From a virus: DNA of 45,454 bases. Of the stretch, positions 1,561 through 33,867 are shown piece by piece (positions within the stretch are counted from its first letter, which is position 1; each line of letters starts with the position of its first letter). The stretch spans positions 1 through 45,454 of the IMG/VR virus record IMGVR_UViG_3300008448_000164; one strand, 5' to 3'. Below the pieces are notes generated by a model. The model was not told the DNA's origin. It searched no databases and was given only the letters and a program-made list of their open reading frames with translations. The position numbers and the translations under genes were made by a program.

Positions 1561-2109
1561 ATGACAAAAATATTAAACGAGCAATTCAATAGAATGCTAA
1601 AATTAGCAGGTTTAATTACTGAAAATGAAATTAATGAAGAAAACTTAACCGAAAATAAATACATAGCTTCAGATTCTCCTGAAGTAACTGGATTTGAAGA
1701 AGAAAATAATAAAATAGTTGTTACTTTATCTAATGGTAATAAAGATGTAATTGAACCAAGAAATTTTGCTAATAAAGAAGCAGGATATAATAAATTTCTT
1801 GAGTTATTAAACACTATGAATACTGATCCTAATGCGAAACAAGTAGTAAATGATTACATAGAAATTAAAAGATTTAATGTACTTAATACAAAAGACGTTA
1901 CTAAACTTTTAGCTGATAATGGTATAGATGAAGAATATTTTACAGCCATGGGTGGTAAAGAAATTGAAGGAGGTTCAAATGAATGGATGGACACAATATC
2001 TGACATTACAGGTAAAGATGCCTATGAAGGTAACTTTAGTAAAAAAGATAATATGAAAATACAAACATTTATGAATCATTTAAATAGTTTAGGTATTAAA
2101 GTAATATAA
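1561..2109 (+). CDS. Candidate capsid-targeted internal protein, LAGLITE leader
   Basis: A 182-aa acidic protein, ATG 1561. The N-terminus (MTKILNEQFNRMLKLAGLIT, then Glu21) forms an amphipathic helix ending in an I-T-E triplet. T4 prohead protease gp21 cuts after [L/I]-x-E, and T4 internal proteins carry such leaders for capsid targeting. Almost the same leader occurs at the gene starting at 7605, and a related string ends the scaffold protein. The rest has no recognised domain and no Cys motif or membrane segment. It is the last gene before a strong terminator. The internal-protein role is inferred; expression is supported by the intact frame and context. Confidence 0.75.
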   Translation: MTKILNEQFNRMLKLAGLITENEINEENLTENKYIASDSPEVTGFEEENNKIVVTLSNGNKDVIEPRNFANKEAGYNKFLELLNTMNTDPNAKQVVNDYIEIKRFNVLNTKDVTKLLADNGIDEEYFTAMGGKEIEGGSNEWMDTISDITGKDAYEGNFSKKDNMKIQTFMNHLNSLGIKVI

Positions 2110-7604: not shown

Positions 7605-8402
7605 ATGGAACAATTTAAAAGAATGCAGCAATTAGCTGGTTTAATTACTGAAGGTATGGAAGCATACGAATATGAAAAAGGTAAAGAAGCTGGTGAAAAA
7701 GCTGAAAAGAAAAAAATGAAAAAATCTGAATTAAAAAAGCAGATTAAAGAAATGATATTAGCTGAAATGAATATTGATTTATCTAATGATGATAAATTTT
7801 ATGATTTCTTAGCTGAAGGAGAATTAACAGCTGATTCATTATATAAGATGTTTGAAAAAGAAGATCTAATTGATGATAGACGTGAATATGATGAAGAAGA
7901 TTTAATGGCTGCTTACCCTGGTTTATCTCAATCTGAAGCTGAAAAATTAGTAAATAAAATATCAGATGGACTAAATGAAGCTAAGAAAAAGAAAGATGAA
8001 GAAGTAGCGGATGTAGAAATAGACGCTAATGTTGATATGGGTAATGAAATGGACATGGGTACTGAAATGGATACTACATCAGTTCCAGCTGCATCAGATG
8101 TTCAAAAAGAATTAATGGACGCGTTAGAAGCAGCTAAAGCATCAGGAGATGAAAAATTAATTCGTCAAATTGGAAATGCTTTAACTTATTTTACTCGTAG
8201 TCAAGTATCTAAAGAAGAAGTTCCAACAATGAATGAACAATTAAGTACAGATGCTATAGAACAATTAGAAAATTTAGCTAATATGGAAGATTTAGGTGTA
8301 TTAAAAGCCAAACTTCGTATTTTATCTTCAGACTGGATGCAAGAGGGATTTGATAGAGAAGATATTATTGAATATATAGCTGATTTTATTAATAAAATAT
8401 AA
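7605..8402 (+). CDS. Candidate capsid-targeted internal protein, LAGLITE leader
   Basis: A 265-aa, very acidic protein. Its N-terminus MEQFKRMQQLAGLITEG is nearly the same as that of the gene at 1561 and ends in an I-T-E prohead-protease-type site at Glu16. A Lys/Glu-rich helical region follows, then a Met/Asp/Thr-rich linker (DMGNEMDMGTEMDTT), then a helical C-terminal third. No enzymatic motif is visible. Given the leader, the likely role is a core or internal protein that enters the prohead and is trimmed there. An ATATTTATA motif precedes it. The family is not recognised. Confidence 0.75.
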   Translation: MEQFKRMQQLAGLITEGMEAYEYEKGKEAGEKAEKKKMKKSELKKQIKEMILAEMNIDLSNDDKFYDFLAEGELTADSLYKMFEKEDLIDDRREYDEEDLMAAYPGLSQSEAEKLVNKISDGLNEAKKKKDEEVADVEIDANVDMGNEMDMGTEMDTTSVPAASDVQKELMDALEAAKASGDEKLIRQIGNALTYFTRSQVSKEEVPTMNEQLSTDAIEQLENLANMEDLGVLKAKLRILSSDWMQEGFDREDIIEYIADFINKI

Positions 8403-16841: not shown

Positions 16842-17402
16842 TTGAAAATCAAAATAGAATATATTATCATATCCCTGCTTGTCGTTGCATTAATTTTGCA
16901 ACGACAATGCTCTTCTCCTACTGAGGTGAAAGAAAAAGTAATAGTTAAAACTAAATATGATACTATAAAAAAAGAAACACCAGTATATGTTCCTAAATGG
17001 AGTACACGCACTGAGGTAGATATAGATACTTTCCTTTCTCCTGTAGATAGCTTGGCTATATTAAAGGAATTTTATACATTATATAATTACATAGATACAG
17101 TAGGAACAGATAGTGTTAAAATTGTTATTAATGATTCTATAACAACAAATAAAATAATAGCAAGACAAGTAAATTATAAAGTAATATATCCAACCATCAC
17201 TATAACTAAAGAAAAAATAATAAACGAAACACAGTTTTTTTATGGTTTTGGTTTAGGGGCTGGAAATAGAGGTTTTAATTATGTGGGTCCTGAACTTATG
17301 TTAAAAACAAAAACAAATAAAGCATATGGATTAGGCATCGGTGTCAATAATAACCTATCTCCAGTTGCAAATTTTAGAATTTACTGGAAAATAGGTAAAT
17401 AA
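16842..17402 (+). CDS. Envelope protein with N-terminal TM and beta-strand C-terminus, spanin-like candidate
   Basis: A 186-aa protein from TTG 16842, directly after the previous stop (TTG 16833 is an alternative; no in-frame ATG lies nearby). It has a short basic start, one hydrophobic segment (YIIISLLVVALILQ), a Cys right after it, then a periplasmic stretch of beta and coil (KVIVKTKYDTIKKETPVYVP). The C-terminal 60 residues alternate Gly and hydrophobic residues as in outer-membrane beta strands (FYGFGLGAGNRGFNYVGPEL, AYGLGIGVNNN). The PVYVPKW segment recalls Rz-like proteins of Bacteroidota phages. The Cys context (QRQC) is not a good lipobox. A lysis role is plausible but unproven. Confidence 0.6.
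   Translation: MKIKIEYIIISLLVVALILQRQCSSPTEVKEKVIVKTKYDTIKKETPVYVPKWSTRTEVDIDTFLSPVDSLAILKEFYTLYNYIDTVGTDSVKIVINDSITTNKIIARQVNYKVIYPTITITKEKIINETQFFYGFGLGAGNRGFNYVGPELMLKTKTNKAYGLGIGVNNNLSPVANFRIYWKIGK
16879..16907 (+). repeat. 11-bp stem hairpin within the TM-coding region
   Basis: TTGTCGTTGCA, a 7-base loop, then TGCAACGACAA: 11 perfect pairs, GC-richer than its surroundings, about 37 bases into the TTG-start gene. It codes for the hydrophobic segment. It may slow translation or transcription, or be accidental. Confidence 0.55.
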
Positions 17403-19000
17403 TGAGTCAAGACTTAAGAGAAATAATAAAACAAGAGTACATAAAGTGTGCGCAAGATCCTGCCCACTTCATGCGTAAATACTGTAATATCCAACATCCA
17501 CAACGTGGGCGTATTATTTTTAATTTATATCCATTCCAAGGTAAAGTATTAAATTTATGGAGAGATAATCCATATTCTATAGTATTAAAATCACGTCAAT
17601 TAGGTATTTCTACATTAGCTGCTGGGTATTCTTTATGGTTAATGTTATTCCATAAAGATAAAAACGTACTGTGTTTAGCTACTACACAAGAAACAGCTAA
17701 AAACATGGTTACTAAGGTAAGATTTATGTATGATAACTTACCAAACTGGTTAAAAATAAAAGATGTAGAAAATAATAGATTAAGTTTAAAATTATCTAAC
17801 GGTTCAACTATAAAAGCTAAATCATCTAATAGTGATGCAGCACGTTCAGAAGCAGTATCATTACTTATTATTGATGAAGCAGCGTTTATTGATAACGTAG
17901 CTGAAACATGGGCTTCTGCTCAACAAACCTTAGCTACTGGTGGTGGAGCCATTGTATTATCTACACCTTATGGTACTGGTAACTGGTTTCATAAAATGTG
18001 GGTATCAGCAGAATCATCAACTGATGATGGTACAGGTAAAAAATTCTTACCTATCAAATTACCATGGTATGTTCATCCTGAAAGAGATGAATTATGGAGA
18101 AAACAACAAGATGAATTGTTAGGTGACCCTAGATTAGCAGCGCAAGAATGTGATTGCGATTTCAGTACATCAGGTGATGTGGTATTTTATAATGAGTTTT
18201 TAGATTTTTATGAAAAAACATATATAAAAGAACCAATTGAACGAAGAGGAGTAGATAAAAATCTTTGGATATGGGAACAAGTTGACTATCATCGCCAATA
18301 TATGGTTGTAGCAGACGTTGCTCGAGGTGATGGAAAAGATTATTCAGCGTTTCATGTTATAGATATTGAATCTAATACTCAAGTAGCAGAATATAGAGGT
18401 CAATTATCAACTACAGAATTTGGACATTTATTAGTTGGTATAGCTTCTGAATATAATGAAGCATTATTAGTAGTTGAAAACGCTACTATGGGTTGGGCTA
18501 CTATACAAACAATAATAGAAAGAGGATATAGAAATTTATATCATTCACCTAAAAGTGATAAAGCAGAAGCTTCTACGTATTTTGATAAATACGGAAGTAA
18601 TGATAGTTTAACACCTGGGTTCACTAACTCATTAAAAACTAGACCAATGGTTGTAAACAAGTTTAGAGAGTATATAAGTGAAAAAAGTGTTGTGATACAA
18701 TCTAAACGTTTAATTGAAGAAATGAAAGTATTTATTTGGAAAAACGGTAGAGCTGAAGCACAAGCAGGTTATAATGATGATTTAGTTATGAGTTTTGGTA
18801 TAGGATTATATGTTAGAGACACAGCTCTAAGATTTAGTGATACTGGTACTGAATTATCTAAATCTGTATTAAACAGTTTCACAAAAACCTCATTCAACGC
18901 TGGAGCATATTCAGCAAACAATAATTTTTATTCACCAACAAAAAACTGGGACATGGATGTAAACGGCCAAAAAGAAGACATAAGCTGGTTACTAAGATAA
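17402..19000 (+). CDS. Terminase large subunit, T4 gp17-like
   Basis: A 532-aa DNA-packaging motor ATPase and nuclease that binds the portal and cuts concatemeric DNA. The ATPase site reads VLKSRQLGIST: Walker A of the deviant type, with the lysine before the loop (Lys63) and Ile where T4 has Lys. Walker B is LLIIDEAAF (Asp158, Glu159). STPYGTGN is the coupling motif. The RNase-H-like nuclease has VVADVARGDGKDYSAF (Asp305), LLVVENATMG (Glu359) and GYNDDLVMS (Asp459/460), as in gp17. Its length is close to that of the T4 protein. The ATG overlaps the upstream TAA. The portal follows. Confidence 0.95.
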   Translation: MSQDLREIIKQEYIKCAQDPAHFMRKYCNIQHPQRGRIIFNLYPFQGKVLNLWRDNPYSIVLKSRQLGISTLAAGYSLWLMLFHKDKNVLCLATTQETAKNMVTKVRFMYDNLPNWLKIKDVENNRLSLKLSNGSTIKAKSSNSDAARSEAVSLLIIDEAAFIDNVAETWASAQQTLATGGGAIVLSTPYGTGNWFHKMWVSAESSTDDGTGKKFLPIKLPWYVHPERDELWRKQQDELLGDPRLAAQECDCDFSTSGDVVFYNEFLDFYEKTYIKEPIERRGVDKNLWIWEQVDYHRQYMVVADVARGDGKDYSAFHVIDIESNTQVAEYRGQLSTTEFGHLLVGIASEYNEALLVVENATMGWATIQTIIERGYRNLYHSPKSDKAEASTYFDKYGSNDSLTPGFTNSLKTRPMVVNKFREYISEKSVVIQSKRLIEEMKVFIWKNGRAEAQAGYNDDLVMSFGIGLYVRDTALRFSDTGTELSKSVLNSFTKTSFNAGAYSANNNFYSPTKNWDMDVNGQKEDISWLLR

Positions 19001-19013: not shown

Positions 19014-20894
19014 ATGGCAGACACTAATATATTCACACGATTAAAACGATTATTCTCAACAGATGTTGTCATCAGAAATGTTGGAGGCAATGAACTTAAA
19101 GTAATAGACGTTAATGCAATTCAACGCTCAGGCGAGATTGAAACTAACTCACTATTAGATAGATTTAATAGAATCTATACTACTAGTCCTACTTCATTAT
19201 ATGGTTATCAACAAAACTTTAACTATCAAACATTACGTACTCAATTATATTCAGAATATGATGTAATGGATGGTGATGCTATTGTAGCTTCTGCTTTAGA
19301 TATTATAGCAGATGAATGTACACTTAAAAATGAACAAGATGAAGTGTTACATATTAAATCAAATGATGAAGATATTCAAAAAATATTATATAATTTATTT
19401 TATGATGTTTTAAATATTGAATTTAATTTATGGTCATGGGCTCGCCAAATGTGTAAATATGGTGACTTTTTCTTAAAATTAGAAATAGCAGATAAATACG
19501 GAGTATATAATGTTATACCTTATACTGCTTATCATATTGAAAGACAAGAAATGTTTGATCGTGAAAATCCATCAGCAGTAAGATTTAGATACGATCCTGA
19601 AGGATTATCAGCTGGTGAATATGGATATTATAATTTACCAGGTTCAAATACAAACAACAGTATATATTTTGATAATTATGAAATGGCTCATTTCCGTTTA
19701 TTATCAGATACTAACTTTTTACCATATGGTAGAAGTTATATTGAGCCAGCTCGTAGATTATTTAAACAATATACATTAATGGAAGATGCGATGTTAGTTC
19801 ATCGTATTGTTCGCGCACCAGAAAAACGTGTTTTCTATATTAATGTAGCAGGTATTAACCCAGCTGAAGTAGAAGGCTTCATGCAAAAAACAGTTAATAC
19901 TATGAAACGTACTCCATATATTGATCCTAAAACGGGTGATTATAATTTGAAGTATAACATGCAAAACATGATGGAAGATTTTTATATTCCAATTCGTGGT
20001 AATGACCAATCAACTAAAATTGATACTACTAAAGGATTAGAATATGATGGTATTAAAGACGTTGAATATTTAAGAGATAAATTATTTGCAGCGTTAAAAG
20101 TACCTAAAGCTTTCATGGGTTATGAAAAAGACTTAACTGGTAAAGCTACATTAGCCGCTGAAGATATTAGATTTGCTCGTACTATAGAACGTATTCAACG
20201 TATATTAGTATCTGAATTATATAAAATAGCATTAATTCATTTATATACTCAAGGTTATACTGAAGAATCATTAGTTAATTTTGAATTATCATTAACTACA
20301 CCATCAATTATATACGATCAAGAACGTGTAGCGTTAATGAAAGAAAAAGTAGAATTAGCAAACACTATTTTAGAGAAAAAGTTATTACCATCAGATTGGG
20401 TTTATGATAATATTTTCCACTTTAGTGATGATCAATATAATGAATATAGAGATTTAATTCGTGAAGATGCTAAACGTGATTTCCGTTTAACACAAATTCA
20501 AGAAGAAGGTAATGATCCATTAGAAACAGGTAAGTCTTATGGTACACCACATGATTTAGCTTATTTATATGGTAATACTAAAAATCATGGAACTGTACCT
20601 GATGGATATGATGAAAAAAGTGTATTAGGTCGTCCAAAAGAAAAAGCAAGTGATATAAATACTCAAGACAATGCGTTTGGTCGTGATAGATTAGGTAAAA
20701 AAGATAATAAAACTGATGATCAAGAATCATTTGGTACACCTAATTATAAAGGAGGTTCACCATTAGCATTAGAAAATAACCGCTATGAGTTTCTAAAAAA
20801 TAAAACAATACTAGAATCTATGAAAAAGAAACTAGTATTTGACAAAGAAAAAACAGCGGGAACATATTTAGATGAAAATCTTATCAAGGATTAA
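19014..20894 (+). CDS. Portal vertex protein, T4 gp20-like
   Basis: A 626-aa portal. It forms the dodecameric ring at one capsid vertex, starts prohead assembly and docks the terminase. Recognisable features are the long mixed core with VMDGDAIVASALDIIADECT (residues ~80-100), the central MAHFRLLSDTNFLPYGRSYI region and KVPKAFMGYEKDLTGKATLA, characteristic of gp20 homologues. The C-terminus is charged and disordered-looking. The length exceeds that of T4 gp20 by roughly a hundred residues, mostly in that tail. Position right after terminase fits the T4 order. Confidence 0.93.
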   Translation: MADTNIFTRLKRLFSTDVVIRNVGGNELKVIDVNAIQRSGEIETNSLLDRFNRIYTTSPTSLYGYQQNFNYQTLRTQLYSEYDVMDGDAIVASALDIIADECTLKNEQDEVLHIKSNDEDIQKILYNLFYDVLNIEFNLWSWARQMCKYGDFFLKLEIADKYGVYNVIPYTAYHIERQEMFDRENPSAVRFRYDPEGLSAGEYGYYNLPGSNTNNSIYFDNYEMAHFRLLSDTNFLPYGRSYIEPARRLFKQYTLMEDAMLVHRIVRAPEKRVFYINVAGINPAEVEGFMQKTVNTMKRTPYIDPKTGDYNLKYNMQNMMEDFYIPIRGNDQSTKIDTTKGLEYDGIKDVEYLRDKLFAALKVPKAFMGYEKDLTGKATLAAEDIRFARTIERIQRILVSELYKIALIHLYTQGYTEESLVNFELSLTTPSIIYDQERVALMKEKVELANTILEKKLLPSDWVYDNIFHFSDDQYNEYRDLIREDAKRDFRLTQIQEEGNDPLETGKSYGTPHDLAYLYGNTKNHGTVPDGYDEKSVLGRPKEKASDINTQDNAFGRDRLGKKDNKTDDQESFGTPNYKGGSPLALENNRYEFLKNKTILESMKKKLVFDKEKTAGTYLDENLIKD

Positions 20895-20929: not shown

Positions 20930-21784
20930 ATGTTAGTAAAACATAATAAATTTAAAAACTCCGGCTTAATATTTGAACTGTTAGTTAGACAAATCACAGC
21001 AGATACATTATCAGGCAAAGAGTCACCATCAATTGATATTTTAAAAAAATATTTTGTTAAAACAGAATTAAGTAAAGAATATAAATTGTATGATACTGTA
21101 CTAAAACAATCTCAAATTACAGAAGCTAAAGCTAATATTGTTATTGAAGAAGTATTAAAAGCATCTCGTAAATTAAATAGAACTACTTTACGTAAAGAAA
21201 AATACAATTTAATTAGTGAAATTAAATCTCACTATAATTTAGATGAGTTTTTTAAAACTAAACTTCCAAATTATAAATCTCAAGCTGCATTATATACATT
21301 AATTGAAATATATAATAATCAAGAGTTAACAGACCCTAATCAAATTATTTCTAATAAAATGACTTTGTTAGAAAATTTAACTGCTCAACCAGTTAAAGAA
21401 AAAGAAGTTAGAGATAATATTATTGAAGAGTTTAAAAAATATGATAAAGATTTACGTTTATTAACATATCAAGTTTTACTAGAAAAATTTAATGGTAAAT
21501 ATAATTCTTTAAATGATAATCAAAAGGTAATATTAAGAGAGTTCATTAACTTAGTAGATAATACTCCACGTTTAAGAGAATTTTATAATACTAAAATTAA
21601 TGAGATTAAAACTCAATTAACTAAATTAAATAAATCAGTTACTGATAAAGTAACTCAAATTAAATTAAATGAAGTTATATCATTAATTACAGAAATTGAT
21701 AAAACCTCAAAAATATCAAATGATGATTTAGTAAATTTATTACAATACTATTCATTAGTTGATGAATTAAAATTAGTAAAATGA
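20930..21784 (+). CDS. Conserved head-module protein of unknown function
   Basis: A 284-aa, Lys-rich all-helical protein. The N-terminus contains NKFKNSGLIFELLVRQITAD, a signature I associate with a conserved protein found between portal and protease in marine T4-like phages. There are no Cys, no catalytic motif and no membrane segment. The helical-repeat look suggests a scaffold- or core-associated role. Its stop overlaps the next ATG (ATGA at 21781), linking it to the small core protein. Confidence 0.75.
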   Translation: MLVKHNKFKNSGLIFELLVRQITADTLSGKESPSIDILKKYFVKTELSKEYKLYDTVLKQSQITEAKANIVIEEVLKASRKLNRTTLRKEKYNLISEIKSHYNLDEFFKTKLPNYKSQAALYTLIEIYNNQELTDPNQIISNKMTLLENLTAQPVKEKEVRDNIIEEFKKYDKDLRLLTYQVLLEKFNGKYNSLNDNQKVILREFINLVDNTPRLREFYNTKINEIKTQLTKLNKSVTDKVTQIKLNEVISLITEIDKTSKISNDDLVNLLQYYSLVDELKLVK

Positions 21785-22104
21785 CCCCAGATAAATTAAA
21801 AGAATTAGTTAAGAAAACCCTACAAGAAATGTCTATGACTGGTGGTGGTACTGCTGGAGGAGCATTTAGTGCTGGTGTTGGTATGAATTATGCTACACCT
21901 AAAGCATTTAAAAAAGTAAAAAATATAGACGAAACAGCATATGGTACTGGTAATTTAGGTCCTGGTCCAAAAGCTGGAAAAGATGGGGTTAAAGATAATT
22001 ATTATGTGAAAGCATTTGGATTTAAACCTGTTAATCGTAAACAACAAGCAAAATCATCTAAAGCTATAGATTATAAAGATCTATGGGGTAAAACATATAA
22101 ATAA
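21781..22104 (+). CDS. Small prohead core protein sharing a motif with the major capsid protein
   Basis: A 107-aa protein. The leader MTPDKLKELVKKTLQE ends in L-Q-E at 14-16, an ideal prohead-protease site. Directly after it comes MSMTGGGTAGGAFSAGVG, which strongly resembles SQTGAGTAGAAFTAGVG just after the likely cleavage site of the major capsid protein in this window. The rest is basic and Gly/Lys-rich (GPGPKAGKDGV, FKPVNRKQQAKSS). In position it parallels T4 gp67/gp68, between portal and protease. It is likely a processed core or capsid-lining protein. Confidence 0.78.
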   Translation: MTPDKLKELVKKTLQEMSMTGGGTAGGAFSAGVGMNYATPKAFKKVKNIDETAYGTGNLGPGPKAGKDGVKDNYYVKAFGFKPVNRKQQAKSSKAIDYKDLWGKTYK

Positions 22105-22113
22105 TATTTATTA
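22104..22113 (+). promoter_or_regulatory. ATATTTATTA intergenic motif
   Basis: ATATTTATTA starting on the last base of the preceding stop, 14 bases before the ATG at 22128. Confidence 0.5.
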
Positions 22114-22127
22114 TAAACAATATTAAC

Positions 22128-23186
22128 ATGAGAAATACACTTCAAGAACAATACAATTTAATTAAAGAAGGTAAAGGAGCTAAAGATGTGTTTTTAAAAC
22201 ACGCTAAATCTTTATTTCCAAATTTAATACCTAACCATTATGAATTTAGTTCAGCATCAAAAATACTTCTTCAACGTGGTATTATATCTGAAAACATGAT
22301 TCTAAATGAAAATTTATGGGGCGTAACTACAGGTAATAACAAACAACCTGATTGGTTTAAATTATTTGAAGAATATACCGCTTCATCTGAAGAAAAAGAA
22401 ACTAAAGCTGATGCTTCTAAACCATCTAAAGAAGTAGATGAGTATAAAGAAAAATCAAATAGCAAACAATACGAAGCAAAAACTGGTGATGATGTTATTT
22501 TTGATCAATACTTAAATGGTATCCAGATTGAAGCATGCAAATCAGAAAACAACGGCAAAACTGTTGATGAATTAAAGAAAATTGTATTAAAAAATCTTAA
22601 AAAAGATAACTTATATTATACTAAAAACGCTGCTTTCGGTGTTGAAGGTATTGGCTATACAGAAGACGTTCCTGGTTTAGGTGCTACTAAAGAAGTAAAA
22701 GGTAAATATGCTTCATCAGGTATGGAACCAGTTAAATTAAAAGAAAATATGAATACTAAAGAATCTCAATTACGCTCAGCAATTCGTCAATTAATTAAAG
22801 AAGAACTTAACTTAAAAGAAATCGATCAAATCGGTGAAGAAGCTTCAAAAGGAGCTAAAGTTAAGAAAATTAACGACGAAATCAATAAACGTAAGAAAAA
22901 AATTAAAGCTTTAGAAACGTTAAAAGAATTAGAAGATGATTCAATCAATCCTAAAAAATTAAAAGAATTATATTCTGAAATTAAAAAACTTGAAGCAGCT
23001 AAAAACAAACTTGAGAAAAAAGGTAAGAAAAAAGAGCAGATTGTAGATGAAGTTACTATTGTAGATAAAACTACTACAAGTGATGAAGTAGCTGATATAG
23101 TAAAACAAGAAAAAACTACACCGGCTGCTGTAAAACAAGCAATTAGTACTGCTAAAACTTCAGGCAAACCAGTAAATGTAGCTTAA
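22128..23186 (+). CDS. Prohead core protein candidate
   Basis: A 352-aa protein between the 107-aa core protein and the protease. The leader MRNTLQEQYNLIKEGKGAKD has L-Q-E and I-K-E sites. A folded-looking first third (VFLKHAKSLFPNLIPNHYEF) leads to an acidic linker. A second leader-like helix, SQLRSAIRQLIKEELNLKEI (about 204-223), is embedded in the middle with another I-K-E site. The C-terminal third is long Lys/Glu coiled coil ending in a Val/Thr/Ala tail. This layout fits a scaffold-core protein cut at several sites. The T4 equivalents by position are gp67/gp68. Confidence 0.75.
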   Translation: MRNTLQEQYNLIKEGKGAKDVFLKHAKSLFPNLIPNHYEFSSASKILLQRGIISENMILNENLWGVTTGNNKQPDWFKLFEEYTASSEEKETKADASKPSKEVDEYKEKSNSKQYEAKTGDDVIFDQYLNGIQIEACKSENNGKTVDELKKIVLKNLKKDNLYYTKNAAFGVEGIGYTEDVPGLGATKEVKGKYASSGMEPVKLKENMNTKESQLRSAIRQLIKEELNLKEIDQIGEEASKGAKVKKINDEINKRKKKIKALETLKELEDDSINPKKLKELYSEIKKLEAAKNKLEKKGKKKEQIVDEVTIVDKTTTSDEVADIVKQEKTTPAAVKQAISTAKTSGKPVNVA

Positions 23187-23187
23187 A

Positions 23188-23802
23188 ATGAGACAACCGT
23201 TAATAGAAACAATACCATTTATAATATCTCGCCAACAATTAATGGAAGGCGTACGAACAGCAGCTGGTAATCCAATTGTTGAAGGCGTATTAGCTACAGC
23301 TGAGGTAAAAAATGGTAATGGTCGCTACTATAAAAAAGATCTTTGGGAACGTGAAATAGACAAATATATGTCTTGCGTTAGAGAAAATAGAGCGTTAGGT
23401 GAATTAGATCACCCTGAATCTTCTATTATTAACTTAAAAAATGTATCTCATAATATAATAGATATTTGGTGGAATGGAGATAAAGTAATGGGTAAACTAG
23501 AAATATTACCTACTCCATCTGGAAATATTGTTAAAGCACTTATTGAAAATAACATTACTATAGGTGTATCTTCACGTGGTATGGGTAGCTTAAAACCACT
23601 TGGTGAAACAATGGAAGTACAAGATGATTTTGAACTATTATGTTGGGACTTTGTATCAACACCTTCAAATCCAGGATCATGGATGCAAGTAACTAAAAGT
23701 GGTTTAAATGAAGGTTTAACTCACAATACTAACCCGTATGCTAAAGTAAATTCAGTAATAACAGAAATACTTTGTGCTAATGGAACTTGTCCAATATTTT
23801 AA
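23188..23802 (+). CDS. Prohead core serine protease, T4 gp21-like
   Basis: A 204-aa protease that digests the scaffold and trims capsid and internal proteins after [L/I]-x-E. NGNGRYYKKDLWEREIDKY and GELDHPESS (His75) are followed by IGVSSRGMGSL (Ser128 and Ser129), the His and Ser sites of the gp21 family. Its own N-terminus contains L-I-E and QQLMEGV, possible self-cleavage points. It starts one base after the previous stop and precedes the scaffold and capsid genes, the T4 order. Confidence 0.92.
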   Translation: MRQPLIETIPFIISRQQLMEGVRTAAGNPIVEGVLATAEVKNGNGRYYKKDLWEREIDKYMSCVRENRALGELDHPESSIINLKNVSHNIIDIWWNGDKVMGKLEILPTPSGNIVKALIENNITIGVSSRGMGSLKPLGETMEVQDDFELLCWDFVSTPSNPGSWMQVTKSGLNEGLTHNTNPYAKVNSVITEILCANGTCPIF

Positions 23803-23817
23803 TTAATTTCTATAAAA

Positions 23818-23827
23818 ATATTTATAA
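23818..23827 (+). promoter_or_regulatory. ATATTTATAA intergenic motif
   Basis: ATATTTATAA immediately before the terminator that follows the protease gene; not next to a start codon. Confidence 0.4.
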
Positions 23828-23831
23828 ATAG

Positions 23832-23862
23832 ACCCTCCCTTAAAAAGGAGGGTTTCTTTTTT
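23832..23862 (+). terminator. Rho-independent terminator after the protease gene
   Basis: Stem ACCCTCC (23832-23838) and GGAGGGT (23847-23853) around a CTTAAAAA loop, then TTCTTTTTT. It isolates the protease operon from the scaffold/capsid operon. Confidence 0.88.
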
Positions 23863-23892
23863 GCAACTCTTCGCATTTTGAACTCTCCATAT

Positions 23893-24008
23893 ATATTTAT
23901 ATGTGAATATGCCGTTCCAAATCTACATACGGCATCTATTTATTAATAATCCCTATTACGCTACAGTAATTAAGCGTATTTCCAAAAAACAATTTGAGGA
24001 CAAAAACT
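23893..24008 (+). promoter_or_regulatory. Motif and structured leader of the scaffold gene
   Basis: After the terminator an ATATTTATA motif (23893-23901) is followed by a 107-base untranslated leader, the longest in the window. It can form two hairpins: ATGCCGT (23909-23915) with ACGGCAT (23929-23935), and TACGCT (23957-23962) with AGCGTA (23973-23978). A rare Shine-Dalgarno-like GAGG lies 10 bases before the ATG at 24009. The gap contains no convincing gene. Confidence 0.5.
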
Positions 24009-24977
24009 ATGACAAACAGAGATTTGTTAAAAGAGGCTATTGCCGACGCAAAAGCAATCAAAGAAACTGCTATTGCAAATGCTAAAGCTGCTTTAGAAGA
24101 ATCTTTTACACCTCATTTAAAATCTATGTTAGCTGCTAAAATCAACGAGATGGACAACTATTATGAAGAAGACGACACAATGGAAGAAAATCTTGATGAA
24201 GTTAACACTGACTTAGAAGAAATGAAAGAAAAAGAAGAAATCGAAGAAGTAGAAGCAGAAATTGAAGAAATTAACCTTGATGAACTTTTAGCTGAATTAA
24301 GTGAAACTTCAGAAATTGAAGAAGAAATTACTGAATCAAAAGAAGAAGAAGAAGTTAAAGAAGTTAAAGAAGAAGAAGGTGAAGAAGAAAGTGAAGAAGA
24401 AGAAATCGATCTTGAAAACATGAGCGAAGAAGATCTTAAAAACTTTATCGAAAGCGTAATTGAAGACATGATCTCAGATGGCGAAATTGAAGCCGGTGAG
24501 GGAATGGAAGCTGAAGCTGGAGAAGAAGAAATGGAAGCTGAAGAAGAAATCAATATCGATGAAGTTTTAGCTGAATTAAAAGACAAAGAAATGGATGAAG
24601 CTAAAAAAGAAGAAGTTGATGAATTAAAGAAAGAACTTGATGAAGCAATGAATGCTATCAAAACATTACGTTCAGAACTTAATGAAATTAATTTATTAAA
24701 CGCTAAATTACTTTACACAAACAAGATTTTCAAAACAAAAAATCTTACTGAATCAGAAAAAGTTAAAGTATTAGCTGCGTTTGACAAAACTACATCTAAA
24801 AATGAAGCTAAATTAGTTTACGAAACATTAATTGAAAATTTATCAAAATCAAAATCTTCAATTAAAGAAAACTTAGGTCGCGCATCAAAACCAGCAGGCG
24901 TGGCTCAAATTAAGAAACCAATTGTAGAATCTAATGACATGGTTGCTAGATTCCAAAAATTAGCTGGTATTATTTAA
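24009..24977 (+). CDS. Prohead scaffolding core protein, T4 gp22-like
   Basis: A 322-aa protein, extremely rich in Glu, forming the internal core around which the capsid assembles; it is then digested by the protease. The start is ATG 24009 (a frame from TTG 23994 is less likely). The N-terminus MTNRDLLKEAIADAK is helical with L-K-E. The middle is continuous acidic helix. The last third is Lys/Glu coiled coil, and the C-terminus ends in MVARFQKLAGII. That ending closely resembles the LAGLITE leaders of the genes at 1561 and 7605. Size and position between protease and capsid fit gp22. Confidence 0.9.
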   Translation: MTNRDLLKEAIADAKAIKETAIANAKAALEESFTPHLKSMLAAKINEMDNYYEEDDTMEENLDEVNTDLEEMKEKEEIEEVEAEIEEINLDELLAELSETSEIEEEITESKEEEEVKEVKEEEGEEESEEEEIDLENMSEEDLKNFIESVIEDMISDGEIEAGEGMEAEAGEEEMEAEEEINIDEVLAELKDKEMDEAKKEEVDELKKELDEAMNAIKTLRSELNEINLLNAKLLYTNKIFKTKNLTESEKVKVLAAFDKTTSKNEAKLVYETLIENLSKSKSSIKENLGRASKPAGVAQIKKPIVESNDMVARFQKLAGII

Positions 24978-25012
24978 TTTAAACAAAAAAACAATTTAAT
25001 TTTTAAAAAACA

Positions 25013-26686
25013 ATGAACTCAATTCAATCATTATTAGAAGGCGCTAACCCATGGAAAGCTCTTCAAAGTGACGCAACTCGTTTAGCTGCGAAATGGGGTA
25101 AGACAGGTTTGTTAGAAGGTTTAAAATCAGAAACCGATAAAAACAACATGTCTATGATCCTTGAAAATCAGGCAAAACAATTAGTAATGGAAACTTCACA
25201 AACTGGTGCTGGTACTGCAGGTGCTGCTTTTACCGCTGGTGTTGGTGAACAATGGGCTGGTGTAGCTCTTCCATTAGTACGTAAAGTATTTGGTCAAATC
25301 GCTGCTAAAGAATTCGTTAGCGTTCAACCAATGAATTTACCTTCAGGTCTAGTATTTTTCTTAGACTTCCAGTATGGTACAACTAAATCTCCATTCACTG
25401 CTGCTGCTGGTGCTGGTTTCTATGGTACTGAATCAGTATACGGTGTAACTAACCCAGGAGCTACTGCTTCTGCAAACGGTGGTTTATATGGTGCTGGTCG
25501 TTTCAGTTATTCTATCAACAACACATCATCATTTAGTTCAGCTACTGTAGCTTCTGCTTCATGGTCTGATTTTAATTTTGATTCTAACTACTCAGCTTCT
25601 TCAGTTTCTCCAGCTGGTGGCCAATGGAAAAAAGTAACTATTACTTTACCTGCAAACACAGATTTTAATGGTGTACGTGCTTTCACTATCGCTTCACAAT
25701 CAGGTTTCCAACCAAGTGATATTCAAGCTGCTTACACTACTACAGCCGGTACTGTATTTAGTGGTACAACTGGAACAGTAACTTTCTTAGTAACTGGTTC
25801 TAAAGTAGGTGATGTTGCTACTGTAGCTAACGTAACTGCTTCATTCCAATTACAACCAACTGATCAATTACGTGGTGATTTCGAAGATGGTAATACTAGC
25901 TTAAATGCTAATAACAACCCAATCTCAATTCCTGAAATCAACGTTAAAATGAAATCAGAGCCAATCGTAGCTAAAACTCGTAAGTTAAGAGCTGTTTGGA
26001 CACCTGAATTCGCTCAAGATTTAAATGCTTACCATGCATTAGACGCAGAAGCTGAATTAACTAGTATCATGAGTGAGTACATCTCATTAGAGGTTGACTT
26101 AGAAATCTTAGATATGTTAATCCAAAACGCTTCAGCTGGTACTGAATATTGGTCAGCAATTAATAATATTGCTTTCACAAGTGCAACAGGTAACGGTACA
26201 ACAACTAACTTAGGTTTCTATAACACTCAAGGTGGTTGGTTCCAAACTTTAGGAACTAAAATGCAGAAATTAAGTAACATCATTCACCAGAAAACATTAC
26301 GTGGTGGTGCTAACTTCTTAGTATGTTCTCCTACAGTAGCTACTGTTCTTGAATCAATCCCAGGATTTGCTACTAACGCTAAAGGTGATGCTGCTCAAAT
26401 GACTTACGCTTTTGGTGTACAGAAAGTTGGTAACTTAAACAATCAGTATGATGTTTATAAGAACCCATACATGACTGAAAATACCATCTTAATGGGTTTC
26501 AAAGGTAAACAATTCTTAGAAACTGGTGCTGTTTTTGCTCCTTACATTCCATTAATCATGACTCCACTTGTATACGATCCAGATACTTTCACTCCACGTA
26601 AAGGTCTATTAACTCGTTATGCTAAGAAAATGGTTCGTCCTGAATTCTATGGTAAAATCTTAGTAAGTGGTTTAAATACCCTTTAA
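25013..26686 (+). CDS. Major capsid protein, T4 gp23-like
   Basis: A 557-aa HK97-fold capsid protein. The N-terminal propeptide (about 1-63) contains SLLEG, GLLEG and MILEN sites and ends near QLVMETSQ, where mature protein would begin with a Gly/Ala-rich SQTGAGTAGAAFTAGVG. Then come LPLVRKVFGQIAAKEFVSVQ and PMNLPSGLVFFLDF, close to the gp23 family (VQPMxxPxGxxFxxxxxY). The C-terminal RGGANFLVCSPTVATVLESI and YAPYIPL-like region are also typical. A terminator follows. Codon choice uses more C-ending codons than neighbouring genes, which suggests high expression. Confidence 0.95.
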   Translation: MNSIQSLLEGANPWKALQSDATRLAAKWGKTGLLEGLKSETDKNNMSMILENQAKQLVMETSQTGAGTAGAAFTAGVGEQWAGVALPLVRKVFGQIAAKEFVSVQPMNLPSGLVFFLDFQYGTTKSPFTAAAGAGFYGTESVYGVTNPGATASANGGLYGAGRFSYSINNTSSFSSATVASASWSDFNFDSNYSASSVSPAGGQWKKVTITLPANTDFNGVRAFTIASQSGFQPSDIQAAYTTTAGTVFSGTTGTVTFLVTGSKVGDVATVANVTASFQLQPTDQLRGDFEDGNTSLNANNNPISIPEINVKMKSEPIVAKTRKLRAVWTPEFAQDLNAYHALDAEAELTSIMSEYISLEVDLEILDMLIQNASAGTEYWSAINNIAFTSATGNGTTTNLGFYNTQGGWFQTLGTKMQKLSNIIHQKTLRGGANFLVCSPTVATVLESIPGFATNAKGDAAQMTYAFGVQKVGNLNNQYDVYKNPYMTENTILMGFKGKQFLETGAVFAPYIPLIMTPLVYDPDTFTPRKGLLTRYAKKMVRPEFYGKILVSGLNTL

Positions 26687-31788: not shown

Positions 31789-33867
31789 ATGGCTATAAAT
31801 ACAATACAAGGATTTAATCCATCTACAACAGAACCTATAGATTCAAGAACAGTAGTAGCCGATTCTTCATCAAGATTTAATATTCCTGTTTACAATTCAT
31901 ATGAAGGTTTATTAGTATTTCAAAAAGATACTAATGAACTTTATTCATTAATAGATACAGGAAGTATATCTAATAGTAGTGGTTGGCAATTAGTAGGAAG
32001 AGATATAGCAACTGGCTCCTTCGCAACTACTGGTTCAAATATATTTATTGGAAATCAAACAATAACAGGATCATTAGGAATAACAGGTTCATTAGCTAAT
32101 GGTAATGAAGTTATAGTGACTGGTAATTATTCACACGCTGAGGGCCGCGAAACAATATCATCAGGAGAATATTCTCATGCTGAAGGTGAATTTACGGTAG
32201 CATCCGGAGATAGTTCTCATACCGAAGGTCTAGATACAATATCATCAGGTTATGCATCTCATGCAGAAGGATATGATACAATATCATCAGGATTTGCATC
32301 TCACGCAGAAGGAATATTTACATCAGCATCCGGAGATTATTCACATGCTGAAGGAAGGAATACAATATCATCAGGTTTATATTCTCATGCTGAAGGTTTT
32401 AGTACAGTAGCATCAGGAATTTCTGTAGGTCCTTTACCAGTTCGTGGTATTTCTGGATATCATATTATTAGTGGTTCAAGTCATGCTGAGGGAGCAGGTA
32501 CAATTGCCTCTGGAAGTTTATCTCATGCTGAAGGATATGATACAACTGCATTTGGTTTAGCTTCACATGCAGAAGGTTATAGTACAGTAGCATCTGGTTC
32601 TTATTCACATGCTGAAGGAGTTGGTACTAGAGCATTAGGTGAGGGTTCACAAGCTGGTGGATATTTTACGTTAGCATCAGGTGGTGGTTCACATGCTGAA
32701 GGCGCAATTACTATAGCATCAGGTCCACATTCTCACGCAGAAGGAATATATGTAACAGCATCTGGTGCTTCATCACATGCTGAAGGTAATTCTACATTAG
32801 CATCTAGTGATTATTCACACGCTGAGGGATATAGAACAATTACTAGAGGATTTGTTTCTCATGCTGAAGGAGAAAGCACAATAGCATCAGGTAGTGTGTC
32901 TCATGCCGAAGGTTATTATACAATTGCTTCAGGAAGTTATTCACATACTGAAGGAGCTTATAATATCACTTTAGGAATAGGTTCACATGCGGAAGGATTT
33001 AGAACAACAGCATCTGCAGATTATTCACATGTAGAAGGTGTATATTCACATACATCAGGAAATTATTCTCATGCAGAAGGTAGTGGTTCGTTATCGTCTG
33101 GAATTGGTTCACACGCTGAAGGTTATCGAACAACAGCATCTGGTGAATTTTCTCATGCTGAAGGTTATCAAACAATAGCATCAGGTATTTTAATTAATAA
33201 TTCTATATCAGGATATACAAGATTTAATGGAAATAGTCATGCTGAGGGGGCAAATACATTAGCATCAGGAAGTGTATCTCATGCTGAAGGATGGGGTACT
33301 ACAACAATTGGTTTTGCATCACATGCTGAAGGAAGACATACAATAGCGTCAGGTGCTTTTTCACACGCTGAAGGTTATGATACAGTAGCATCGGCAGAAG
33401 CTTCACACGCTGAAGGATACTATACAACAGCATCAGGTAGAGCATCTCATGCAGAAGGATGGAGTACAGTAGCATCGGCAGAAGCTTCACACGCTGAAGG
33501 TTATAGTACAGTAGCATCTGGTTCTTATTCACATGCTGAAGGAGTTGGTACTATTGCACTTACTAATACTATAGGTGTTTTAAGTACTCTATGGCCTCAG
33601 CATGTAATTGGTACATATAACCAAACTAGTTCAAATGCTGTATTTATTGTAGGTAATGGATATCAAGCACCTTTCACTGGAGATATAGTAAGACGTAATG
33701 CGTTTTCTGTAGAATTAATATCAGGTTCAAACATAACTACTACAGCTGTATTATCTCAAGTATCAGAAAGTTGTAATTTCGCAAACGATGCTGCTGCAGC
33801 AACTGGAGGAATACCATTAGGAGGTTTATACCATACAGCAGGAACAATAAAAATAAGATTAAATTAG
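31789..33867 (+). CDS. Tail fibre with about 32 YadA-head-like SHAEG repeats
   Basis: A 692-aa fibre. Residues 1-115 include GSFATTGSNIFIGNQTITGS, shared with the previous gene. Residues about 118-590 are roughly 14-residue repeats of the form ASGxxSHAEGxxTxxSG, the Hep_Hag/YadA-head type that folds into a left-handed trimeric beta roll. I count about 32 SHAEG or close variants (SHTEG, SHVEG, SQAGG). Two non-repeat inserts (near VGPLPVRGISGYHII and INNSISGYTRFNG) interrupt them. The C-terminus is a non-repeat cap. It probably binds the host surface. Confidence 0.85.
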   Translation: MAINTIQGFNPSTTEPIDSRTVVADSSSRFNIPVYNSYEGLLVFQKDTNELYSLIDTGSISNSSGWQLVGRDIATGSFATTGSNIFIGNQTITGSLGITGSLANGNEVIVTGNYSHAEGRETISSGEYSHAEGEFTVASGDSSHTEGLDTISSGYASHAEGYDTISSGFASHAEGIFTSASGDYSHAEGRNTISSGLYSHAEGFSTVASGISVGPLPVRGISGYHIISGSSHAEGAGTIASGSLSHAEGYDTTAFGLASHAEGYSTVASGSYSHAEGVGTRALGEGSQAGGYFTLASGGGSHAEGAITIASGPHSHAEGIYVTASGASSHAEGNSTLASSDYSHAEGYRTITRGFVSHAEGESTIASGSVSHAEGYYTIASGSYSHTEGAYNITLGIGSHAEGFRTTASADYSHVEGVYSHTSGNYSHAEGSGSLSSGIGSHAEGYRTTASGEFSHAEGYQTIASGILINNSISGYTRFNGNSHAEGANTLASGSVSHAEGWGTTTIGFASHAEGRHTIASGAFSHAEGYDTVASAEASHAEGYYTTASGRASHAEGWSTVASAEASHAEGYSTVASGSYSHAEGVGTIALTNTIGVLSTLWPQHVIGTYNQTSSNAVFIVGNGYQAPFTGDIVRRNAFSVELISGSNITTTAVLSQVSESCNFANDAAAATGGIPLGGLYHTAGTIKIRLN
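32575..32628 (+). repeat. Intragenic DNA repeat, copy A
   Basis: A stretch of about 54 bases, from GGTTATAGTACAGTAGCATC to GAAGGAGTTGGTACT, recurs essentially unchanged at 33499-33552. Nucleotide identity beyond the protein motif points to a recent internal duplication or gene conversion. Confidence 0.7.
33499..33552 (+). repeat. Intragenic DNA repeat, copy B
   Basis: The second copy of the stretch at 32575-32628, at the 3' end of the SHAEG repeat region. A shorter repeat containing GTAGCATCGGCAGAAGC also occurs twice nearby (from about 33386 and from about 33470). Confidence 0.7.

Follow-up and report, generated by a model that had tools for sequence, protein, structure and literature searches.

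The window analysed here, the whole 45,454-nucleotide stretch of IMG/VR record IMGVR_UViG_3300008448_000164, represents part of the genome of an uncultivated T4-like myovirus and carries a series of head genes. A terminase gene (17402-19000) lies 5' of a gp20 portal gene (19014..20894; PF07230, E 5e-66), and is followed by a 284-aa gene (20930..21784), a gene for a small protein of 107 aa (21781..22104), a 352-aa gene (22128..23186), a gp21-type prohead protease gene (23188..23802; PF03420 Peptidase_S77, E 2.5e-28), a gp22-like scaffold gene (24009..24977) and the gp23 major capsid protein gene (25013..26686; PF07068, E 2e-77, and T4 gp23* structures), all from the portal onwards on the plus strand. 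The 284-aa, 107-aa and 352-aa genes were recognised as open reading frames; the first has a similar gene in Flavobacterium phage immuto and its stop codon overlaps the start of the small gene (ATGA), the second has relatives in viral contigs, and the third has a positional counterpart in immuto. The gp22-like product gave no profile match and was assigned from its position, with gene order as in T4, and its acidic composition. Since the T4 order is 20-67-68-21-22-23, the small gene sits in the gp67/gp68 region.

Two features of the surrounding genes may be recorded separately. The scaffold-like protein (24009-24977) ends in RFQKLAGII, and two other proteins of the window (1561-2109 and 7605-8402) begin with almost this peptide (FNRMLKLAGLITE and FKRMQQLAGLITE) ahead of a likely protease site, so that in sequence their N-termini look like capsid-targeting sequences copying the scaffold C-terminus; 119 C-terminal instances of the scaffold-type motif occur in the fetched loci, with redundancy not removed. 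In the region 3' of the capsid gene, 31789-33867 encodes a 692-aa protein made up largely of SHAEG-x-T-x-ASG type repeats.

The capsid gene is of the T4 gp23 type, possessing both the Gp23 Pfam domain and a homologous mature start. Its product aligns to 8gmo/8t9r from residue 70, which corresponds to chain residue 15, and alignment to the start of mature T4 gp23* places the propeptide at residues 1-60 (25013..25192, plus strand). The protein reads VME60 followed by TSQTGAGTAGAAFTAGVGEQW, giving a V-x-E site whose P4 residue is L, and the predicted new N-terminus falls near the T4 gp23 cleavage point; [VLI]xE is kept directly before the motif in all 106 of 106 capsid relatives. The segment T61-W81 (25193..25255, plus strand) occupies the position of residues 66-91 of T4 gp23* (PMC7136217), the first ~25 residues of that mature protein, known as the N-fist. 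In the expanded T4 shell the fist contacts four subunits, and where it faces the portal it is disordered (PMC9958956, PMC7136217). Before expansion, the N-terminal regions of T4 gp23 lie disordered in the prohead interior (PMC9958956).

The small protein has a comparable start. Its predicted propeptide comprises residues 1-16 (21781..21828, plus strand), with an AlphaFold2 (AF2) helix at residues 3-19 and a putative cut site at LQE16, and the protein continues with MSMTGGGTAGGAFSAGVGMNY; comparison of sequences and profiles with the capsid identifies this segment, M17-Y37 (21829..21891, plus strand), as a copy of the fist. The remainder (21892..22101, plus strand) consists of ATPKAF and a C-terminal module conserved in the family (GPGPKAG..GVKDNYYVK.F). 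Among the small-protein relatives, [LIVM]xE stands immediately ahead of the motif in 94 of 107 automatic extractions, and several of the misses are extraction errors. Cleavage after E16 by a gp21-type protease is thus likely, given the conserved site, the S77 protease gene and the T4 precedent (PMC9026906), and the protease of the window is presumed to cut both proteins. If the N-fist is taken as the first ~25 mature residues after the prohead-protease cut, the capsid segment qualifies by alignment and that of the small protein by site conservation only. AF2 models of both proteins show a helix up to the cut and then an unstructured segment, as in the T4 prohead, at low confidence in each case (pLDDT 55 for the poor capsid model, and below 50 at residues 21-37 of the small protein). 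The small family gave no convincing Pfam or PHROG match and no PDB match.

The original prediction, that the small protein copies the mature N-terminal motif of the capsid protein, is borne out by both sequences in the window, with a correction of one residue on each side: the strings are present, with M17 standing between E16 and SMTGGG in the small protein (LQE16, then M17-SMTGGGTAGGAFSAGVG) and T61 between E60 and SQTGAG in the capsid (VME60, then T61-SQTGAGTAGAAFTAGVG). The likeness is also longer than first noted: it spans residues 6-38 of the small protein and 50-82 of the capsid without a gap (33 residues), takes in the end of the propeptide helix, the [L/V]xE site and a Gly-rich segment of 21 residues, and extends through MNYA/EQWA. 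The local score between the two proteins is 84, against 47 for the next best protein of the window and maxima of 73 in 5000 full shuffles and 71 in 5000 local-composition shuffles. When the record was searched with the small protein alone, the capsid gene was the sole other match (E 8.6e-6), and comparison of the small-family and capsid profiles gave E 2.1e-6 with a probability of 89%. Chance and low complexity are rejected as sources of the likeness by the shuffles, the record search and the profile comparison alike.

The likeness is confined to these two genes. We searched nine complete records (seven far-T4 contigs of 43-166 kb, immuto and Microcystis phage Mel-JY01) with an HMM whose rows came exclusively from the small family. 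In 7/7 far-T4 contigs, of which L079 and L120 carry a short form of the small protein, its matches were limited to the small gene and the N-arm of the capsid (capsid E 2e-7 to 2e-3); in immuto it matched the small gene alone, and in Mel-JY01 it found no match. No third copy of the fist was found in the window, and we reject the idea that head proteins commonly carry the motif. The tested head-module proteins of T4, cyanophage ACG-2014f, immuto and Mel-JY01 yielded no convincing fist copy, the lowest uncorrected p being 0.012 (T4 gp21).

Relatives of the small protein were collected from five viral-contig scans and those of the capsid from one, the flanks of which mostly hold the small gene too. 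Family members are common among aquatic far-T4 contigs, a tblastn search of 50,697 phage records with three of them gave no hit, and none was found in bacterial and archaeal genome contigs; a profile search of capsid-neighbour genes detected gp072 of immuto (E 5e-5). Family members comprise an N-terminal helix or larger N-terminal domain, the [LIVM]xE site, a Gly-rich segment and a TPxAF motif, and many carry the C-terminal module GPGPKAGxxGVKDNYYVKxF. Two forms exist, a long form that keeps FxxGxGxQY and a short form that passes to YxTxYAF after ~10 residues, and switches between them number about eight on the capsid-body tree (on which the labels of L099 and L146 are wrong). Conservation of the motif, on which the original prediction could have failed, therefore divides: xSx[TS]G next to the cut is conserved in the family, and the FxxGxGxQY half is absent in a large subset. 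The search pattern revealed no full fist at 72 loci that hold both a family protein and a capsid gene, although it may have missed some, and since about 70 relatives thus keep the family protein without it, the fist is not obligatory. Nor does the capsid need the copy, since neighbours L100 and L101 have near-identical capsid fists and the small protein of L101 is of the short form.

Several further observations concern the architecture of the family. The close relatives L012:1095-1655, L023:6383-7018 and L031:9563-10192 have different stretches inserted where the fist/TPKAF part gives way to the C-terminal module, and the middle of the protein may therefore be a cargo site. In 68 loci, including L018:10296, a second gene of ~80 aa (FQxxRIxAFDxIE...KYYRxNPxSYxVVxGTDLIxDYxKDIExLL) directly follows the small gene; other phages carry it as a C-terminal extension of the small protein itself, and the window is without it. 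A 178-aa protein of Mel-JY01 (L082:4461-4997) reads MNE followed by ENVTGNVDGYETPYAF and is possibly a distant member of the small family; the capsid protein of that phage begins SE, then ANRTGTSAG.

The two fists are matched within phages. Had they diverged independently since one duplication, the small fist would be expected to be no closer to its own capsid fist than to that of another phage. In a set of 64 phages, each representing one 85% capsid-body cluster, we find scores of 54.4 for own and 41.9 for other capsid fists (z 10, 0/20000 permutations), and the coupling persists among 11 phages below 68% capsid identity (0/20000) and among 8 below 64% (60/20000). The score is 55.0 for own pairs and declines as capsids diverge, reaching 39.8 below 65% identity. 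The coupling involves Gly-tract length (Spearman 0.75; 19/28 equal against 9.8 expected), the residues of the tract and the x of GxG, as may be seen in L159 (small SATNQGGASFTPGQG, capsid SATNQGGGTFTAGQG) and L145 (small STTGGGAGAASFSSGTGAQ, capsid STTGGGAGAGNFSPGTGAQ). It is absent at P1' and in the upstream propeptide helices (z 0.9). Small fists compared with other capsid regions gave z of -2.6 to 0.5, which rejects a general effect of Gly-rich composition, and the segments that follow the fists reached z 3.2, a value for which shared ancestry is presumably sufficient. Switches on the capsid tree provide 2-4 fully independent pairs per trait, which lean in the expected direction, none significantly; with so few independent switches the permutation p values overstate independence, and the coupling is strong as a pattern that rests on a limited number of events. 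Given that the copy is matched to that of the capsid on the mature side of the cut but not in the propeptide, the same binding site for both fists is the most economical reading.

An unlikely alternative is that the motif is an extended recognition site of the prohead protease, the likeness arising solely because the same enzyme cuts both proteins. Such a site would account for the retention of [LIVM]xE followed by xSx[TS]G in both proteins, even in relatives without the remaining fist, and protease recognition may explain the five residues nearest the cut on its mature side. However, the coupling begins after the cut and is strong deeper in the mature part, the motif given for T4 gp21 in a review is L/I-x-E only (PMC9026906), and other proteins of the window have LITE sites without the motif. 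The shared protease and substrate context offered by the original prediction consequently lacks support as a full explanation, whereas its proposal that the small protein mimics the capsid next to a protease site common to both retains support in that [LIVM]xE is kept directly before the motif in the two proteins, at what is in the capsid the T4 gp23 cleavage point.

We regard it as equally improbable that both fists match a common internal partner in the prohead, either the scaffold or another core protein, rather than the capsid lattice. The interior position of T4 gp23 N-terminal regions before expansion (PMC9958956) and the location of the small gene among the T4 core genes are consistent with such a partner, yet the propeptides, which would face the core, are uncoupled, and the known contacts of the T4 fist are those in the expanded shell.

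At the DNA level, the codons of residues shared by the small and capsid fists are identical at a rate of 0.57, against 0.47 expected from codons of the same capsid gene (0/2000), which points to some exchange between the two. The longest stretches of identical DNA show no significant excess (233 against 222 +/- 9), and recent conversion is therefore not evident. Across 37 disjoint pairs, dN/dS is 0.21 in the small fist and 0.30 in the capsid fist, and the former value indicates constraint by purifying selection. That the small fist is a passenger of old duplication and gene conversion, kept similar by recombination with no shared binding role, would fit the codon identity and the repeated changes in full-fist presence on the capsid tree, but is decidedly improbable in view of this constraint and of the unremarkable shared runs. 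Partial duplication of the 5' region of the capsid gene, as originally proposed, is plausible for a cassette of helix plus fist, but not as the whole explanation, since the coupling within phages calls for later exchange or co-adaptation in addition to any duplication.

On a slight balance of probability, then, the small protein is a prohead-core protein that is cut by gp21, and whose freed fist binds the site occupied by the capsid's own fist; we infer that it is cleaved, is present in the virion and binds a socket there, as well as where it is located. Under this hypothesis, the N-terminal helix of the small gene product would be a propeptide ending in [L/I/V]xE, which the gp21-type protease would remove during head maturation, as the conserved site and the T4 example suggest. 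The cut would free a mature N-terminus copying that of the capsid, the T4 counterpart of which is an N-fist that clamps neighbours upon expansion, and the freed fist could enter the same kind of capsid socket. Candidate sockets are those in which the capsid fist is missing or unpaired (for example around the portal or the vertices), or those won in competition with capsid fists, and the remainder of the small protein would thereby be tethered to the shell. If both fists fit the same socket they would evolve together, partly perhaps via DNA exchange between the two genes. A more specific and less likely version is that far-T4 phages possess a dedicated, protease-activated internal fist decoy that plugs capsid sockets at maturation (e.g. 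those facing the portal or vertices), in which DNA exchange together with co-adaptation would keep the two fists of each lineage matched.

Comparison with known systems reveals partial parallels. The T4 gp23* N-fist likewise directly follows the gp21 cut and precedes the N-arm, contains Gly and Ala and is disordered until the shell expands; the difference is that here a second, unrelated protein bears a copy. T4 gp67 and gp68 are, like the small gene, small genes between those of the portal (20) and the protease (21), and gp67 is cut by gp21, the T4 core proteins being largely degraded to peptides; however, searches of Pfam, PHROG and PDB gave the small protein no convincing family match, and, unlike it, gp67, gp68, gp21, gp22, gp24 and gp20 contain no convincing fist copy. 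The T4 internal proteins IPI-III, with their capsid-targeting sequence, share with the small protein a short N-terminal propeptide ending in [LI]xE (in the latter, LQE16 after the helix), yet in IPI-III the shared peptide is the part removed, whereas in the small protein it is what would remain after the cut. Immuto gp072 (73 aa) agrees in gene position, family and cut context (LEEMSTTG), and differs in being a short form ending in YLTKNAF without a copy of the capsid fist.

We found no papers on mimicry of capsid N-arms or on concerted evolution of phage capsid segments, and the mechanisms that localise T4-like core proteins have been called mysterious in a review (PMC9958956). A copy of the capsid fist that co-varies with it in a second protein offers a testable handle on how internal proteins are placed against the shell in T4-like phages, and a candidate function for this unannotated family, members of which often occur in aquatic far-T4 contigs.
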